Shown piece after piece: positions 16,626 to 62,394 of a stretch of DNA of 64,000 bases; within the stretch, counting starts at the first letter, position 1, and each line of letters opens with the position of its first letter. A program made the translations under genes and the position numbers. This stretch comes from Natronobeatus ordinarius (lineage in GTDB: Archaea > Halobacteriota > Halobacteria > Halobacteriales > Natrialbaceae), in the NCBI RefSeq assembly GCF_024362485.1, contig NZ_CP101456.1:3038001-3102000 (forward strand). The letters run 5' to 3'. The notes under the pieces were generated by a model. That model searched no databases, was not told the origin of the DNA, and saw only the letters and a list, made by a program, of their open reading frames with translations.

Positions 16626-16749
16626 CTATAGTAACCGTTGAACGTCATTGCACACCCGGTCACGACCATCGGCGGTCAGCCTCGTCGACGAGGTCGAGGC
16701 TGCCCGCTCGGCTGTGACCGGGTGTAACTCGTTTCAACGAATACTATAG
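16626..16749. mobile_element. 124-bp palindromic element, copy 1 (MITE-like)
   Basis: The element is bounded by the inverted termini CTATAGTA (16626-16633) and TACTATAG (16742-16749). Inside are near-symmetric arms: ACACCCGGTCAC pairs with GTGACCGGGTGT, and GGTCAGCCTCG with CGAGGCTGCCC, around a short loop. Copy 2 at 39344-39467 is exactly the same length, in inverted orientation, and matches closely outside the loop. It has no coding capacity. Terminal inverted repeats, dispersal and near-identity suggest a non-autonomous mobile element or an extragenic palindrome. The stop of the 16734-17054 gene lies within it. Confidence 0.8.
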
Positions 16750-17054
16750 CCCGCCGTCTCCCCGAAGATCGTCTCGTGAACGCCGATCACCAGCCCCGGC
16801 ACGACGAGCATGAAGAGGTGCTCCTCGAGGGGGATTCCCGCGACCTCGATCCCCGTCCGGAGGTTGATCTCGAAGACGCCGACCGCGAGCGTATAGCGGT
16901 CCCAGAGGTAGGCGATCGGGTAGAGTGCGACGATCGTGACGGCAGCCTTGCCGAGCGCGCCGGCTCGTCGCAAGAGGATCAGTGCGATCGTTCCCCAGAA
17001 CAGTTCGGTCGCGAGGTACGTGTACCGTCCGAAGATCCCGATGTCCGGCACCAT
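16734..17054 (-). CDS. Single-domain lycopene cyclase-like membrane protein
   Basis: From the ATG at 17052-17054 (MVPDIGIFGRYTYLATELFWG) the protein has 106 residues and three membrane helices. It matches one lycopene-cyclase domain (CrtYc/CrtYd type): AYLWDRYTLAVGVFEINLR and the diagnostic GIPLEEHLFMLVVPG. Two such domains normally make one carotenoid cyclase; a single-domain protein would need to dimerise or pair with another subunit. The last four residues (YSIR) and the stop are encoded by the terminus of a 124-bp palindromic element, so the native C-terminus may have been replaced. Confidence 0.78.
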   Translation of the reverse strand: MVPDIGIFGRYTYLATELFWGTIALILLRRAGALGKAAVTIVALYPIAYLWDRYTLAVGVFEINLRTGIEVAGIPLEEHLFMLVVPGLVIGVHETIFGETAGYSIR

Positions 17055-17232
17055 ACCCGAGAGTCGACCGCCGCCGAAAAAAGCGTATCCGGCAGTTTCA
17101 CCGGCTGGATCGGAGCGTCCCAACCAAAATCGCGTGACGCTGCAAACCGGCGTCCACTGCTGTCCAGTGGCGCCGAGAGCACCAGCGGGCGGTACGTTGA
17201 TAACCGTCGCGGGAGTAGGCCCCCGCAGAACG

Positions 17233-18390
17233 ATGGACATCGCTGACATCGCTACGACGGAGTATATCGAAGTCGACGCCGGGACGCGAATGGGGAAGGT
17301 CCGTTCGTCATTCGAGAACGGAAACCCCAAGGGACTCGTCGTCACCAACGACGGGGAGTACCGGGGGATGATCAGCGAACGGGAGGTCCTCCAGTCCCAC
17401 GTCGAAGACGACGCGAAAGTGGCGGCGCTCATCAAGCCGAGTCGCACCGATCCAGTGCCCAAGATCGGGCGAACCGAGAACGTCCGCGACGCCGCCCGCA
17501 AACTCATCGAGGGTAACGCCCGGGTCGCACCCGTCTTCGAGAACGACGAGCTGTGGGGGATCGTCAGCGGTGACGGCATCCTCGAGGCCGTCCTCGAGAA
17601 CTTAGACGCGATCACCGTCGACGACGTCTACACCGCCGATCCAGCGACCCTGAACGAGGACGACGGCATCGGCAAGGCGATCAACTACCTGCGCGAACAC
17701 GGCGTCTCTCGACTGCCCGTCCTCAACGAGAACGGCTACCTCAGTGGCGTCGTCACGACCCACGACATCGCCGACTTCGTCATCCGCCAGGACGAGCGAA
17801 CCACGACCGGCGACCGCGTCGGCGACAGCGACCGGATGCTCGACGTGCCGGTCTACGACATCATGAACAGCCCCGTCCGGACAGTGGCCATCGAGTCGAC
17901 CGCCCGCGAGGCCGTCGAGCAGATGCTCGAGGAAGACTACGGCGGGCTGATCGTCACCCCTGCAGACGACGACCGCGTCGTCGAGGGCGTCATCACCAAA
18001 ACCGACGTGCTGCGCGCGCTCACCTACACCGAAGAAGAGCACATGGACGTCCAGATCACGAACATCTCGCTGCTCGACACCATCACGCGCGAGTCCATCG
18101 TCGAGAGCATCCAGAGCGTCTCCGATAAGTACGCCGAGATGCAGGTGTTCCACGCCCACGTCCGCTTTCACGAACACAAGGAGAAACTCCGTGGCACGCC
18201 CCTGATCCGCTGTCAGATCCGGCTGCGAACCAACAAAGGCCAGGCCGCCGGCTCCGGCGAGGGCTACGGCTCCGAGAACGCCTTCCGCGTCGCCCTCGAC
18301 AAACTCGAGCGCAACGTCCTGGAGATGAAAGGCGTCCAGAGCGACGAGGAGTACCGCGGACAGCTGCTGCGGAAGCTCAACGAGTTGTAA
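17233..18390 (+). CDS. Four-CBS-domain protein with HPF/RaiA-like C-terminal domain
   Basis: The start MDIADIATTEYIEVDAG at 17233 gives 385 residues. Four CBS motifs can be laid out (about residues 5-60, 65-122, 125-185 and 212-275), with strand-loop signatures such as GISKLPV-like GVSRLPVLNENGYLSGVVTTHDI and DYGGLIVTPADDDRVVEGVITKTDVL. CBS pairs bind adenine nucleotides. The last 105 residues (MDVQITNISLLD..., AHVRFHEHKEK...) look like the beta-alpha-beta fold of ribosome hibernation factors (HPF/RaiA). That similarity is my reading and untested; a ribosome-linked energy sensor would be a reasonable hypothesis. Confidence 0.85.
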   Translation: MDIADIATTEYIEVDAGTRMGKVRSSFENGNPKGLVVTNDGEYRGMISEREVLQSHVEDDAKVAALIKPSRTDPVPKIGRTENVRDAARKLIEGNARVAPVFENDELWGIVSGDGILEAVLENLDAITVDDVYTADPATLNEDDGIGKAINYLREHGVSRLPVLNENGYLSGVVTTHDIADFVIRQDERTTTGDRVGDSDRMLDVPVYDIMNSPVRTVAIESTAREAVEQMLEEDYGGLIVTPADDDRVVEGVITKTDVLRALTYTEEEHMDVQITNISLLDTITRESIVESIQSVSDKYAEMQVFHAHVRFHEHKEKLRGTPLIRCQIRLRTNKGQAAGSGEGYGSENAFRVALDKLERNVLEMKGVQSDEEYRGQLLRKLNEL

Positions 18391-39026: not shown

Positions 39027-39347
39027 ATGGTGGTGATCGCCGCGATTCCGTGGCTCCGCGGGCTGTGGAACTACTACCGTGAGTACACGAGCACGCCGAT
39101 ACACACGGCCGCGACGGCGGCGCTCGCGATCTTCGGGATTCTCATCTTCGTCGACCCGCTCTTCGCCGTCGTCGCGATCGGCTCGTACGTCCTCCCGCCG
39201 ATCGTCCTCTACGTTCGGCAGCCAGCGAACGACGACCGATCGTCGACCGCTCGACCGGATGCAGGCGATGACACTCCCCGGGACGGCGATACGGACACCG
39301 ATCGGGACGACGGTGACACCGACTCGGACTCGGATCGTGACGGGTAG
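39027..39347 (+). CDS. Small membrane protein with Asp-rich tail, unknown function
   Basis: A 106-residue protein: short amphipathic N-terminus, two hydrophobic helices (TAATAALAIFGILIFVDPLF and VVAIGSYVLPPIVLYV), then about 38 mostly Asp/Arg/Ser/Thr residues (DTDTDRDDGDTDSDSD). The TAG stop (39345-39347) lies in the left terminus of the second 124-bp palindromic element, so the tail may have been altered by the insertion. Confidence 0.65.
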   Translation: MVVIAAIPWLRGLWNYYREYTSTPIHTAATAALAIFGILIFVDPLFAVVAIGSYVLPPIVLYVRQPANDDRSSTARPDAGDDTPRDGDTDTDRDDGDTDSDSDRDG

Positions 39348-39467
39348 AGGACTCGTTGAAACGATTTACACCCGGTCACAGCCGAGCGGCCAGCCTCGGT
39401 AACGAAGCCGAGGCTGGCCGCCGACGTTCGTGACCGGGTGTGCAATGACTTTCAACGTGTACTCTAG
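39344..39467. mobile_element. 124-bp palindromic element, copy 2 (MITE-like)
   Basis: Inverted relative to copy 1 at 16626-16749 and of identical length. Termini are GTAGAGGA and TACTCTAG (less perfect than copy 1). Arms are nearly perfect: ACACCCGGTCAC faces GTGACCGGGTGT, and GGCCAGCCTCGG faces CCGAGGCTGGCC around an 8-nt loop. A base that differs between copies is often matched by its partner, keeping the hairpin. It starts within the stop of the preceding gene. Confidence 0.8.
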
Positions 39468-49384: not shown

Positions 49385-52300
49385 TCGTCACCTCCAGAAC
49401 TGACGTCCTGGCCGCCGTCGCTCGCGGTCGGCGTCGCAGGCGTTCGGCTGGAGACGTCGAACGAGACGTCGGGGCCGAAGTAGCGCGTCCACAGCACCAG
49501 CAGCGTCGGCAGGACGATCACGCTCGCGAGGAATGCGTAGACGATCGTCAACCCGGTGATGATCCCGAACTGCTGGAGCGCCGGGAGGATCGCGAGCGCC
49601 AGCGTACCGAAGCCGCCGACGGTCGTCGCGGCACTCCCGAGCAACGCACCGCCGGTTCCCGTCACCGTGGTGTGCATCGCGTCCCAGACGTTGCCCTGTC
49701 GCTCGAGTTCGAGGGTGTATCGCGAGCTGACGTGCACACTGTACGCAACGCCCAGCCCGATCGTAAGGCTGGTGATCATCCCCGTCAGGACGTTGAACGG
49801 CATCCCGAGCAGGTACATCGTCCCGAGAATCCAGCTCACCGTGAACGCCACCGGCAACAGCGTCACCGCACCCAGAGTGGCGCTGTTGCCCGTCATCCAG
49901 TAGGCGACCGTGAGGAAGACGAAGACGACCACGAGCGTAATCGCGAGGCTCTCGAGAACCGTGTTCAGCAGGTCCTGCTCGACGACGTGATTGACGATCG
50001 GACCGCCGGTCGCGATTGCACTCCAGCGGGGATCGGTCCCGCCGTCGTCGAAGCTGGCGGCGAGGTCGCGCATCTCGTCGGTCGTCTCGGCAGAACCGGC
50101 GTTCCCGCTGATCGAGACGAGCATCCTGATCGCCTCGTACTCGCCGTCGTCGGTCCGATAGATCAGGTTCGCCGCGTTCTCGTCGACCTCGAAGAGCTCG
50201 TCGTACAGCGCCTCGAGGTTCTCGTTCGGGACGCCGTCGCCGGTCGTGTCGGCAGCGACGAACGACTCGTTGAACGACTCGTTGTTCGCCGCGACGTCTT
50301 CCATCGTCGACAGCGGGCTGTCGACGTCGGCCGCCCCGCTGGCGAGGACGTAGACGACGTCGCTCTCGCCCGCCCGCTCTTCGATGGCGGCGACCCGCTC
50401 GAGGGTCTCGTCGTCGGTCACCTCCCCTCGGATGAGGAGCTGGGCCTGGGCGTCCTCGCGCTGGAAGTTTTCGTTGACGTAGTCGAGTTCGGCTTTCGCG
50501 TGGTACTCACCCGGAGTGAACGGGGCGGGAAGCGAGTACACCCAGTCGGGCGGACTGTCGGCGAGGAAGTCCTCGTCCTCGAAGCTGGTGTCGACCTGCG
50601 TCGCGCCGTACATCCCACCGGCAGTCAACAGGAGGACGGCGAGGAGGACGACCAGCGGGGCCCGCCGGGCGGCGATCGCACCGACCGAGAGCGCGCTCGC
50701 GAACCTGCTCTCACCGGTCCCGAACGCTCGTTTCCGACGATCGAATCCCGCCCGTTCCAGCAGACAGTCGAGTTCGACTTTCACGGCGGGCACGAGCGCA
50801 CCGAAGACGACGAGCGCCGCCAGGATGCCGAACGCGCTGACGATCCCGAACGCCCGGATCGGCTCGATCGGGCTCACGAGGTTCGCCAAAAATCCGATCG
50901 CCGTCGTCGCCGTTACCCAGACGAGTGCCACGCCCACGCCCGCCAGCGCGACCGTCATCGACCCGCGAACGTCGTCAGTTACGCCGTCGGCCTCCCGTTG
51001 TTCGCGGTGGCGCATGAACACGTGGATAGCGTAATCGATCGACAGCCCGATCAGGAGGACGGGAACGGCGATCATCATCTGGTTGAACGCGATCCCCATC
51101 CAGCCCATGAACCCGAACGTCCAGACGAGGACGGCGAGGATGCCGAGGACCCCCAGGACGATGTCCAGCGGATCCCGGTAGGCGACCGATAGTGCGATCA
51201 CGACGAACAGCAACGCCAGCGGGCCGACGATCGCTAAACTGTCGCCCATCGAACGGTCGATCTCGTCCATCATCGCTCCGGCCCCGAAGACGACGTACTC
51301 CTGATTCCGGTCGGACGCCAGCTCGCGCATCTCGAGCTGGGCGTCGACCACGTCGGCGCCGAAGCCCCCGGGCTCACCAGCGCTGGTCGCCTCCGCCGTG
51401 GACTGCGTGATGAACGTCATCCGGGCGTCCGCGCTCGTGGAGCCGGGATCGTACGACGACGGCAGCAATCCGAGCGCGAACTCGTTGTCGTCGTCCCCGA
51501 GCGTATCGGTCACTGCCTCCTCGAACGCCGCCGCGCTCATCGACTCGAGGTACTCGAGCTGCTCGTCGAGCGATGGATCGAACTCCTCGAGCTCCTCGAA
51601 CGCCGCCTCGAGGTCGTCGCCTCGCGCCTCGAGCTCCTCACCCCACGCCTCGAGCTCCTCACCCCACGCCTCGAGTTCGTCGCCGCGGGCCTCGAGTTCG
51701 TCACCACGAGCTTCGAGCTCATCACCGCGGGCTTCGAGCTCATCACCCCACGCCTCGAGGTCGTCGCCTCGCGCCTCGAGTTCCTCACCCCACGCCTCCA
51801 GCTCATCGCCGCGGACCTCGAGCTCGTCACCACGATCTGCGAGTCGCTCCCCTCGCGCCTCGATCGATTCGGCTTCCGCCTCGAGTTCCGCGCCGCGAGT
51901 CTCGAGTTCCTCGCCACGGGCCTCGAGCTCGGCGAATTCGTCCTGGAAGAGCTCGAACGGCGCACCTTCGACGACCCTCGCGAGCGCCGTTTCGACCTCG
52001 AAAAGGTCGCTCGTAAGCGACCGAACGTCGGCGGCAGCAGCCAGGAAGTCGTCGCGCTCGTCTTGTTCGAGTGCAGCCTCGTCCGCTGCCTCCTGCAAGG
52101 TCGTCTCGATCGCCGTTTCGAGCTCGGTCGCGTTCTCCGCGTACGCCCCGTCGTCGATCTCACCCGCGGCGTAGGAGGCGTTGAGCTGGTCGTACTGGCT
52201 CTGTAACTCGGCGACTTGGTTCAACGCCGCCAGGAGGTCGTCCGCGCGGGGATCCGGTCCAACGACGCCGACCGTCCCGTCTTCGAACGCCTGCTCGAGG

Positions 52301-53265
52301 GTCGCCTCGAGCTGGGCCCGTTCGCTCGTGAGCGTTCGAACCTCCTCGGCCGACGCCCGGAACTGCCGTTCCTGGTCGGCGTCGAGGGCCGCCTCGTCGA
52401 TCGCCCCCTGGAGGAGCGCCTCGATCTTGGCGTCGGCCTCGGATTCCGTTAGGTTCCTGGCCTCGTACTCGGCTTGCACCTCGCTCGTGTCGGCGAGCGC
52501 GCCCGACAGCATCTCCGCCCGGGCCTCGAGTGCCGCTTGCTCCTGGGCGAGTTCCTCGCCGTCTCTCTCGAGCCGTTCGAAATCGGCCTCGAGTTGCGCC
52601 GCCCGGTCCGCGAGCCGTTCGGCCTGCCACTCGAGCGTTTCGGCGTCCGCCTCGAGTTCGTCGGCCGACGCGTTCAGCGCCTCGAGTTCCGCCTCGAGTT
52701 CGTCGGCCGACGCGTTCAACGCCTCTGACTCCGCCTCGAGTTCGTCGGCCGACTCGTTCAACGCCTCGAGTTCCGCCTCGAGGTCATCGGCCGACTCGTT
52801 TAATGCCTCGAACTCTGCCTCGAGTTCGTCGGCCGACGCGTTGATCGCGTCGGCTTCGGCCTCGAGTTCGTCGATGCGCTCGTCGACCATCGCGCTGATG
52901 ACCAGCAGGTTCTCGACGCCGACCGCCGAGTCGTTCTCAGCGAGCGTCGCGTCGATTGCGTCGGCGTCGCGAAGCTCCTGCTGGAAGGCGAGCGAGTCGA
53001 GCAGCGACTCCTTCGTGAGGACGTTCTCGCCCCTGACGATGAGCTGGACGGTCGTCGTGTTCCCGTCGCCCGCCGTACTGAAGTTCTCCGCGGCGTACTC
53101 AGACGCCTCGACTTCGGGAGAGTCCGTCTCGAACTGCTCGAGCGACGAGTCGTCGTCGATCATCGCCACGCCGGAGCCGAGCAACGCCGTCGTCAACAGG
53201 AGGGTGACGATGACGACGGCACTGTGGGCGGTGATCCAGTTGCCAATCCGGTCCGGGGCGCTCAT
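49381..53265 (-). CDS. RND/MMPL-type exporter with long heptad-repeat insert
   Basis: The 1294-residue protein has an RND plan: first helix (VVIVTLLLTTALLGSGVAM), a large first outer loop, helices 2-6 with SIDYAIHVFMRHREQREADG, a second loop and helices 8-12 (LGVAYSVHVSSRY). Its oddity is the first loop: residues about 125-565 are almost wholly coiled coil, first as 14-residue repeats (ADELEAELEALN), later as heptads (DELEARG, EELEAWG) with Gly at every seventh position. Substrate probably lipid or amphiphile, as in HAE3/MmpL relatives. It forms an operon with TrmB. Confidence 0.9.
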   Translation of the reverse strand: MSAPDRIGNWITAHSAVVIVTLLLTTALLGSGVAMIDDDSSLEQFETDSPEVEASEYAAENFSTAGDGNTTTVQLIVRGENVLTKESLLDSLAFQQELRDADAIDATLAENDSAVGVENLLVISAMVDERIDELEAEADAINASADELEAEFEALNESADDLEAELEALNESADELEAESEALNASADELEAELEALNASADELEADAETLEWQAERLADRAAQLEADFERLERDGEELAQEQAALEARAEMLSGALADTSEVQAEYEARNLTESEADAKIEALLQGAIDEAALDADQERQFRASAEEVRTLTSERAQLEATLEQAFEDGTVGVVGPDPRADDLLAALNQVAELQSQYDQLNASYAAGEIDDGAYAENATELETAIETTLQEAADEAALEQDERDDFLAAAADVRSLTSDLFEVETALARVVEGAPFELFQDEFAELEARGEELETRGAELEAEAESIEARGERLADRGDELEVRGDELEAWGEELEARGDDLEAWGDELEARGDELEARGDELEARGDELEAWGEELEAWGEELEARGDDLEAAFEELEEFDPSLDEQLEYLESMSAAAFEEAVTDTLGDDDNEFALGLLPSSYDPGSTSADARMTFITQSTAEATSAGEPGGFGADVVDAQLEMRELASDRNQEYVVFGAGAMMDEIDRSMGDSLAIVGPLALLFVVIALSVAYRDPLDIVLGVLGILAVLVWTFGFMGWMGIAFNQMMIAVPVLLIGLSIDYAIHVFMRHREQREADGVTDDVRGSMTVALAGVGVALVWVTATTAIGFLANLVSPIEPIRAFGIVSAFGILAALVVFGALVPAVKVELDCLLERAGFDRRKRAFGTGESRFASALSVGAIAARRAPLVVLLAVLLLTAGGMYGATQVDTSFEDEDFLADSPPDWVYSLPAPFTPGEYHAKAELDYVNENFQREDAQAQLLIRGEVTDDETLERVAAIEERAGESDVVYVLASGAADVDSPLSTMEDVAANNESFNESFVAADTTGDGVPNENLEALYDELFEVDENAANLIYRTDDGEYEAIRMLVSISGNAGSAETTDEMRDLAASFDDGGTDPRWSAIATGGPIVNHVVEQDLLNTVLESLAITLVVVFVFLTVAYWMTGNSATLGAVTLLPVAFTVSWILGTMYLLGMPFNVLTGMITSLTIGLGVAYSVHVSSRYTLELERQGNVWDAMHTTVTGTGGALLGSAATTVGGFGTLALAILPALQQFGIITGLTIVYAFLASVIVLPTLLVLWTRYFGPDVSFDVSSRTPATPTASDGGQDVSSGGDE
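51590..51940 (-). repeat. 21-bp intragenic repeats encoding Gly-heptads
   Basis: Within the RND gene, about 15 consecutive 21-bp units encode [D/E][D/E]LEA[R/W]G. The third codon positions vary between units, so the protein pattern is kept by selection or by repeated local duplication followed by drift. A second zone (about 52640-52870) has 42-bp units encoding ADELEAELEALNES-like repeats. Confidence 0.85.
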
Positions 53266-62079: not shown

Positions 62080-62394
62080 TCGACCGGACGACCGTCCGGT
62101 AGCCGACCAGGTACACGTTCTAGTTCTTTCGACGACCGTCTCCGAGAGCGACGCCTCCCCGACGAGCGCAACTGTCTCCGAAAGCGACGCCTCCCCGACG
62201 AGCGCAACTGTCTCCGAAAGCGACGCCTCCCCGACGAGCGCAACTGTCTCCGAAAGCGACGCCTCCCCGACGAGCGCAACTGTCTCCGAAAGCGACGCCT
62301 CCCCGACGAGCGCAACTGTCTCCGAGAGCGACGCCTCCGACGAATGCCGGTTCGACGGCGACCATTTATTCACCCTCGTGAGCTGTATCGTACC
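62080..62394. other. Spacer between sod and the FAD oxidase, mostly tandem array
   Basis: This 315-bp gap is filled mainly by the array at 62138-62341. A TATA-like ACCATTTATTCACC (about 62362-62375) lies 20-30 bp before the FAD oxidase ATG at 62395, which fits a near-leaderless start right after the array. Confidence 0.6.
62138..62341. repeat. 36-bp tandem array, five full copies plus a partial
   Basis: Units start at 62138, 62174, 62210, 62246, 62282 and 62318 (partial). Each begins GTCTCCGAAAGCGACGCCTC and ends GACGAGCGCAACT. The first and last copies have GAGAGC where the middle ones have GAAAGC; otherwise they are identical. There are no spacers. Length 36 is a multiple of 3, so both strands stay open through it, but the frames lead nowhere gene-like. 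Confidence 0.95.

Follow-up and report, generated by a model that had tools for sequence, protein, structure and literature searches.

The two 124-bp palindromes present in the window, that is, the 64-kb stretch of the Natronobeatus ordinarius chromosome analysed here, are very probably (a likelihood of about 85%) copies of a non-autonomous MITE of the IS630/Tc1-mariner type, which would duplicate TA at CTAG-like sites and be moved in trans by an IS630-family transposase. This is a known kind of element, the family itself being apparently undescribed. The initial annotation had considered a MITE or an extragenic palindrome family, and both descriptions are supported by the presence of about 83 copies on the chromosome, a putative TA duplication, the location of 58 of 60 copies between genes and the occurrence of changes on both sides of pairs.

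The two copies, which are the only family members in the window, are found at 16626-16749 (+) and, in the opposite orientation, at 39344-39467, and can be aligned without gaps over the 124 bp (Table 1). As described in the initial annotation, they have the same length and matching termini and arms, the centre differing between them and the changes in the arms being partly paired by changes in the partner. When each strand of each copy was folded and compared with shuffled sequences, z values from -8.8 to -11.9 were obtained, with 0 of 200 shuffles as good. The repeat proper would comprise 118 bp, the 124-bp unit adding a TA per side as well as the flanking C and G of a CTAG-like target. In copy 2, TATAG has become TAGAG at both tips, a terminal change which is matched at the opposite end.

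Table 1. Positions in the window of the two MITE copies, their parts and the adjacent genes
Feature	Position	Strand	Description	Basis
MITE copy 1, element proper	16629..16746	+	118 bp, TAGTAACCGTTGAACGTC...CGTTTCAACGAATACTA, between duplicated TA	Boundaries by analogy with empty sites
Copy 1, left end	16626..16631	.	CTATAG: target C, TA and first element bases; putative target CTAG	Empty sites
Copy 1, right end	16744..16749	.	CTATAG: last element bases, putative duplicated TA and target G	Empty sites
Copy 1, A arm	16626..16661	+	Terminal repeat and subterminal box GTCATTGCACAC; distinct from the B arm and similar to the right end of the IS630	
Copy 1, central stem-loop	16662..16711	+	Specific to the 124-bp class, GGCGGTCAGCCTCG...CGAGGCTGCCCGCTCGG	Folding, class alignment
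Copy 1, B arm	16712..16749	+	Box GTGTAACTCGTTTC and terminal repeat	
Lycopene-cyclase-domain protein gene	16734..17276	-	Start approximate; last four codons and stop (Y-S-I-R-stop) inside the end of copy 1	
106-aa open reading frame	39027..39347	+	Upstream of copy 2, no family match; TAG stop at copy 2 tip	
MITE copy 2 with target bases	39344..39467	-	Element, duplicated TA and flanking target bases; putative target CTAC	
MITE copy 2, element proper	39347..39464	-	118 bp, reverse orientation; both tips GAG, not TAG	

A covariance model built from 37 family members located 83 distinct places at E<=1e-5 on the 4.08-Mb chromosome (89 including weaker ones), so that a genome without further copies, a case which the initial annotation had envisaged, was not what was found. 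BLAST of the same genome gave at least 40 copies, and the terminal motif TATAGTANYCGTTGAA, with one mismatch at most, occurred 97 times, compared with once for its reversed control. The covariance model found no copy on the second contig (134 kb), although its length corresponds to an expectation of about 2.6-2.8, a difference which is not significant. Three size classes could be distinguished (86, about 113 and 124 bp, including target bases), with common ends CTATAG...CTATAG; the 86-bp class is the most frequent, and the two longer ones result from an added central stem. The element proper, with terminal repeats TAGTAnnCnnTGAA, measures 118 bp in the window copies and 80 bp in the commonest form and is, like MITEs in general, short, non-coding, multicopy and bounded by terminal inverted repeats. 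Moreover, nearest-neighbour identity was 100% for 6 of 57 copies in this genome and at least 93% for most, which argues that part of the family has spread fairly recently.

The insertion sites were studied with a composite of the flanks of 14 copies from three genomes of one genus (probably Natrinema), compared with 26 genomes of that genus, three loci with messy junctions (L165, L167 and L176) being left out as empty sites. Several flanks proved to be continuous without the element in sister genomes, such presence/absence with precise empty sites between related genomes being a further mark of a MITE. In the cleanest pair (L195 and L169), the empty site reads GACGGACGG-CTAG-CGGACG and the filled one GACGGACGG-CTATAG...CTATAG-CGGACG, the flank letters being GGACGG-CTAG-CGGACG against GGACGG-CTATAG...CTATAG-CGGACG. 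At other loci, the four bases of the empty site were CTAG (L168/L219), CGAG (L174/L217), CCAG, CCAC and CTAT (L173), and ATAG and ACAG (L175). In the 86-bp class the net gain is 82 bp, i.e. the 80-bp element and one duplicated TA. From these empty sites we infer the target-site duplication sought since the initial annotation, a 2-bp TA duplication at a CTAG-like target as in the IS630/Tc1-mariner group, with a 2-bp ambiguity, since an insertion shifted by 2 bp and lacking duplication would give an identical sequence. Within the host genome, the probable targets were NTAG in 39 of 57 cases and CTAG in 19 of 57. Head-to-tail neighbouring elements with a common CTATAG joint also occur, a pattern which insertion of one element into the terminal TA of another would produce. 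In the draft assembly of genome G020, apparent tandem copies (L162, L163 and L164), which are separated by tNt or the like, probably mark places where scaffolds were joined at repeats.

As regards the enzyme, matches to PF13358 (DDE_3) revealed IS630-type transposases in 22 of 41 genomes of the family, with nine matches in the host genome itself. No larger autonomous relative had been noticed in the initial annotation, which is true within the window; nevertheless, six of these nine matches belong to 1,061-bp IS630 elements with matching ends elsewhere on the chromosome, their ends being CTATAGTAACCGTTAGAA and CTATAGTAAAAATTAGAA and the sixth copy being slightly diverged. A search of the host genome for a larger element, in which two TATAGTANYCGTTGAA motifs in inverted orientation were to lie at a distance of 1-3 kb from each other, found none, and missed this IS because it reads CGTTAGAA. 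Two overlapping frames are present, the first with HTH_33 and positions 1-134 of the NCBIfam IS630 model NF033545, and the second with DDE_3 and positions 136-298 of the same model, matches which place the transposase in the IS630 family. This arrangement in the six copies (L251-L256) suggests that frameshifting may be used to make the transposase.

One end of each of the six IS copies starts TAGTAACCGTT, and nearly all their ends are preceded by CTA, the CTATAG ends being common to IS and MITE. The A arm of the MITE in the host genome starts TAGTAACCGTT as well, with 11 of 11 bp, the variable ACC among them, identical to the IS left end, and 18-19 of 27 positions identical to the IS overall; in genome G001, IS and MITE both start TAGTAGTCGTT. 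Past the common tip, the A arm agrees with the IS right end, at equal distance, at 9 of 12 positions (8e-4 in shuffles), while the B arm shows no match to the IS left end (3 of 12). The 86-bp class, which reads CACTGAAA where the IS reads CGTTAGAA, has a poorer terminal match. Terminal repeats are thus held in common with an autonomous transposon, as in other MITEs, and this sequence evidence indicates that the MITE is most likely moved by the IS630 transposase of its own genome. Genomes with this IS also have more MITEs (one-sided p 0.016), a weak relation in which the relatedness of the genomes is ignored and counts of 58 matches are lower bounds.

According to the mechanism proposed, an IS630-family transposase would be supplied in trans, in the host genome by the two-ORF 1,061-bp IS with ends CTATAGTAACCGTTAGAA; it would bind the terminal repeats and the unlike subterminal boxes and excise the element, which would be re-inserted at CTAG-like sites with duplication of the TA. 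The hairpin would arise secondarily, because the terminal repeats span almost the full length and are kept similar through their recognition by the transposase, perhaps also by template-switch correction, and the copies surviving at gene ends would lend transcripts a 3' hairpin and could supply stop codons.

The search for further copies in haloarchaeal genomes, suggested in the initial annotation, found family members in 51 of the 61 sampled genomes of the host family, Natrialbaceae, and in 26 of the 29 genera sampled, which names a repeat present in most of these genomes and passed over by annotation. In addition, 54 haloarchaeal plasmid records contain the element, among them Haloarcula hispanica pHH400, Halomicrobium mukohataei pHmuk01 and records of Natrialba magadii and Haloterrigena turkmenica, the Haloarcula and Halomicrobium megaplasmids representing occurrences outside the host family. 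The plasmids of Haloarcula hispanica and CBA1115 have nine copies each, paired by spacing, and their comparison gave no empty site. An exact-pattern search over all GTDB genomes yielded 15 matches, two of them haloarchaeal and the rest apparently due to chance; those in named records fall within Natrarchaeobius and Natrinema. Phage records gave no match to the element.

The pairing of the arms, and the compensatory changes sought in them, were analysed by size class. For the 86-bp class, the proportion of paired cells is 92.4%. Both-sided changes affect 51 cells there, compared with 12.8 +- 6.1 when columns are shuffled (0 of 500). These shuffles ignore relatedness, and slid controls favour the structure supplied to them. 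Among the both-sided changes are ACTG/CAGT, AGTG/CACT and TCTTG/CAAGA, as well as the replacement of A-T by C-G at columns 16/71 and of T-A by C-G at columns 32/56. In the 124-bp class, 29 such cells were found against 9.3 in shuffles, most of them falling on a single pair in the centre (51/78: CG, GC, UA). The claim that hairpin structure is maintained stands as a description; as a claim of selection it would go further than these changes show, since matched terminal inverted repeats, and likewise quasipalindrome correction, would yield the same signal. Template-switch correction of quasipalindromes is an established process giving such paired changes, and the both-sided changes show matched arms rather than selection on a folded strand. 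One subterminal region, moreover, is conserved yet unpaired (GTCA/ATCG), and one half of this region is similar to the right end of the IS. Since the A arm agrees with that end and the B arm has no match of that level past the tip, this asymmetry is read as two unlike subterminal protein-binding boxes, and suggests predicted transposase-binding sites rather than RNA; the stretches GTCATTGC and CGATTTAC of the A and B arms are candidate transposase contacts. Rfam gave no match in the window at the gathering score. That the hairpin and the unpaired GTCA/ATCG region are themselves under selection, in the form of a folded DNA strand or an RNA bound by a host or transposase protein, is an unlikely proposal which, if true, would mean that haloarchaeal families have retained an IS630-type element as a regulatory module, a hairpin at the 3' end.

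With regard to genomic context, 58 of 60 copies in the host genome lie outside predicted genes, in DNA which is 84% coding according to a simple codon-based gene caller. Gaps between convergent genes contain an excess of copies (17 against about 9 expected) and those between divergent genes a shortage (10 against about 23), tandem gaps having 31 against about 26, where the expected numbers come from the intergenic length of one 64-kb window, a background of limited size. In several cases a gene extends 1-16 bp into an element before it ends. This placement, the conserved unpaired region and the excess of both-sided changes over shuffles in both size classes would be in accordance with a folded strand that works in the host, as a 3' hairpin, mRNA stabiliser or terminator, or protein-binding cruciform comparable to REP/ERIC, with mobility being secondary. 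Such a function as the primary explanation is nonetheless unlikely: terminal repeats matching one protein give both-sided changes on their own, template switching at quasipalindromes could account for the central pairs, the placement can be what remains after selection against promoter and gene damage, and the same loci are without the element in sister species. At the end of the lycopene-cyclase-domain gene, the element was absent in 19 of 19 relatives compared.

A small mobile repeat of the kind known from Haloquadratum, with ends not related to those of a transposon, insertion without target duplication and an unknown mobiliser, would fit in size and form, as SMR-A of Haloquadratum walsbyi has about 110 bp, inverted ends and many copies (PMC3119063). 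In the same direction point six element-rich genomes (G004, G005, G008, G020, G024 and G047), with 25-50 elements each and no PF13358 match; in these either the enzyme was lost or another enzyme exists, and persistence may need no PF13358 enzyme. Nevertheless, the ends match an IS630 which the genome itself contains, the empty sites fit a TA duplication and the copies lie between ordinary genes, whereas SMRs have no related transposon and insert into PATEs/IS605 elements, which makes this explanation quite improbable. Still less likely is an IS200/IS605-type element (a PATE or a REP/RAYT relative), moved single-stranded via hairpin recognition: the foldback with conserved unpaired bases and the frequency of PATEs in haloarchaea would agree with it, but such elements have near-terminal palindromes with neither terminal inverted repeats nor target duplication, and what was found are full-length terminal inverted repeats, insertion resembling TA duplication at CTAG-like sites and ends matching a DDE transposon. 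Extragenic palindromes of the REP/RAYT type are short hairpins whose partner is a tyrosine (HUH) transposase. A chance palindrome or a segmental duplication of one locus, with no point in its favour, is ruled out for practical purposes by the dispersal of about 83 copies, whose flanks are unrelated, and by shuffles that never fold as well.

The non-autonomous IS630/Tc1-mariner-type MITE has well-known bacterial parallels, compared here by description. The RUP of pneumococcus is a 107-bp intergenic element with 108 copies, a TA target and ends like those of IS630-Spn1 in the same genome (PMC2229807); both are short non-coding inverted-repeat elements with an IS630 partner, the relation by mechanism being that of RUP to IS630-Spn1. 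Unlike RUP, the present element is archaeal, palindromic over nearly its full length, found in several size classes across a whole family and directed to a CTAG-like target. The Correia element or NEMIS of Neisseria also has two size classes by internal insert, TA termini and long stem-loop transcripts (PMC2229807, PMC10969869), and the likeness extends to classes, ends and folding; it differs in being bacterial and having its own promoters and an IHF site. ERIC/IRU of enterobacteria is a 127-bp intergenic repeat with TA at its termini (PMC2229807). Its likeness to the MITE lies in size, termini and intergenic placement. To our knowledge, its sequence is unrelated to that of the haloarchaeal element and it has no established transposase partner.

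Archaeal MITEs have been reviewed for Sulfolobus, Halobacterium, Haloquadratum and others (PMC10969869). Those of Halobacterium include ISH2, which the transposase of ISH8 mobilises in trans, and MITEHsal (PMC10264941); they differ in their 6-10 bp target duplications, in belonging to other transposon families and in their greater length (about 410 bp for MITEHsal2). A literature search which covered few subscription papers and had ISfinder outside its scope found no description of this haloarchaeal family; by sequence string, no haloarchaeal paper was among the matches listed. Haloarchaea would gain a clear counterpart of RUP, Correia and ERIC, for which a partner IS, a target and empty sites could be named, and the effects of the hairpin on archaeal gene ends are directly testable because Haloarcula hispanica carries the family.

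Other repeats were also observed in the window. Two arrays of imperfect, in-phase repeats with units of 21 and 42 nt (51524-51964 and 52566-52901) probably encode a repetitive protein region, and at 62099-62374 repeats of a 36-nt unit reach up to 98% identity over overlapping 96-nt stretches.
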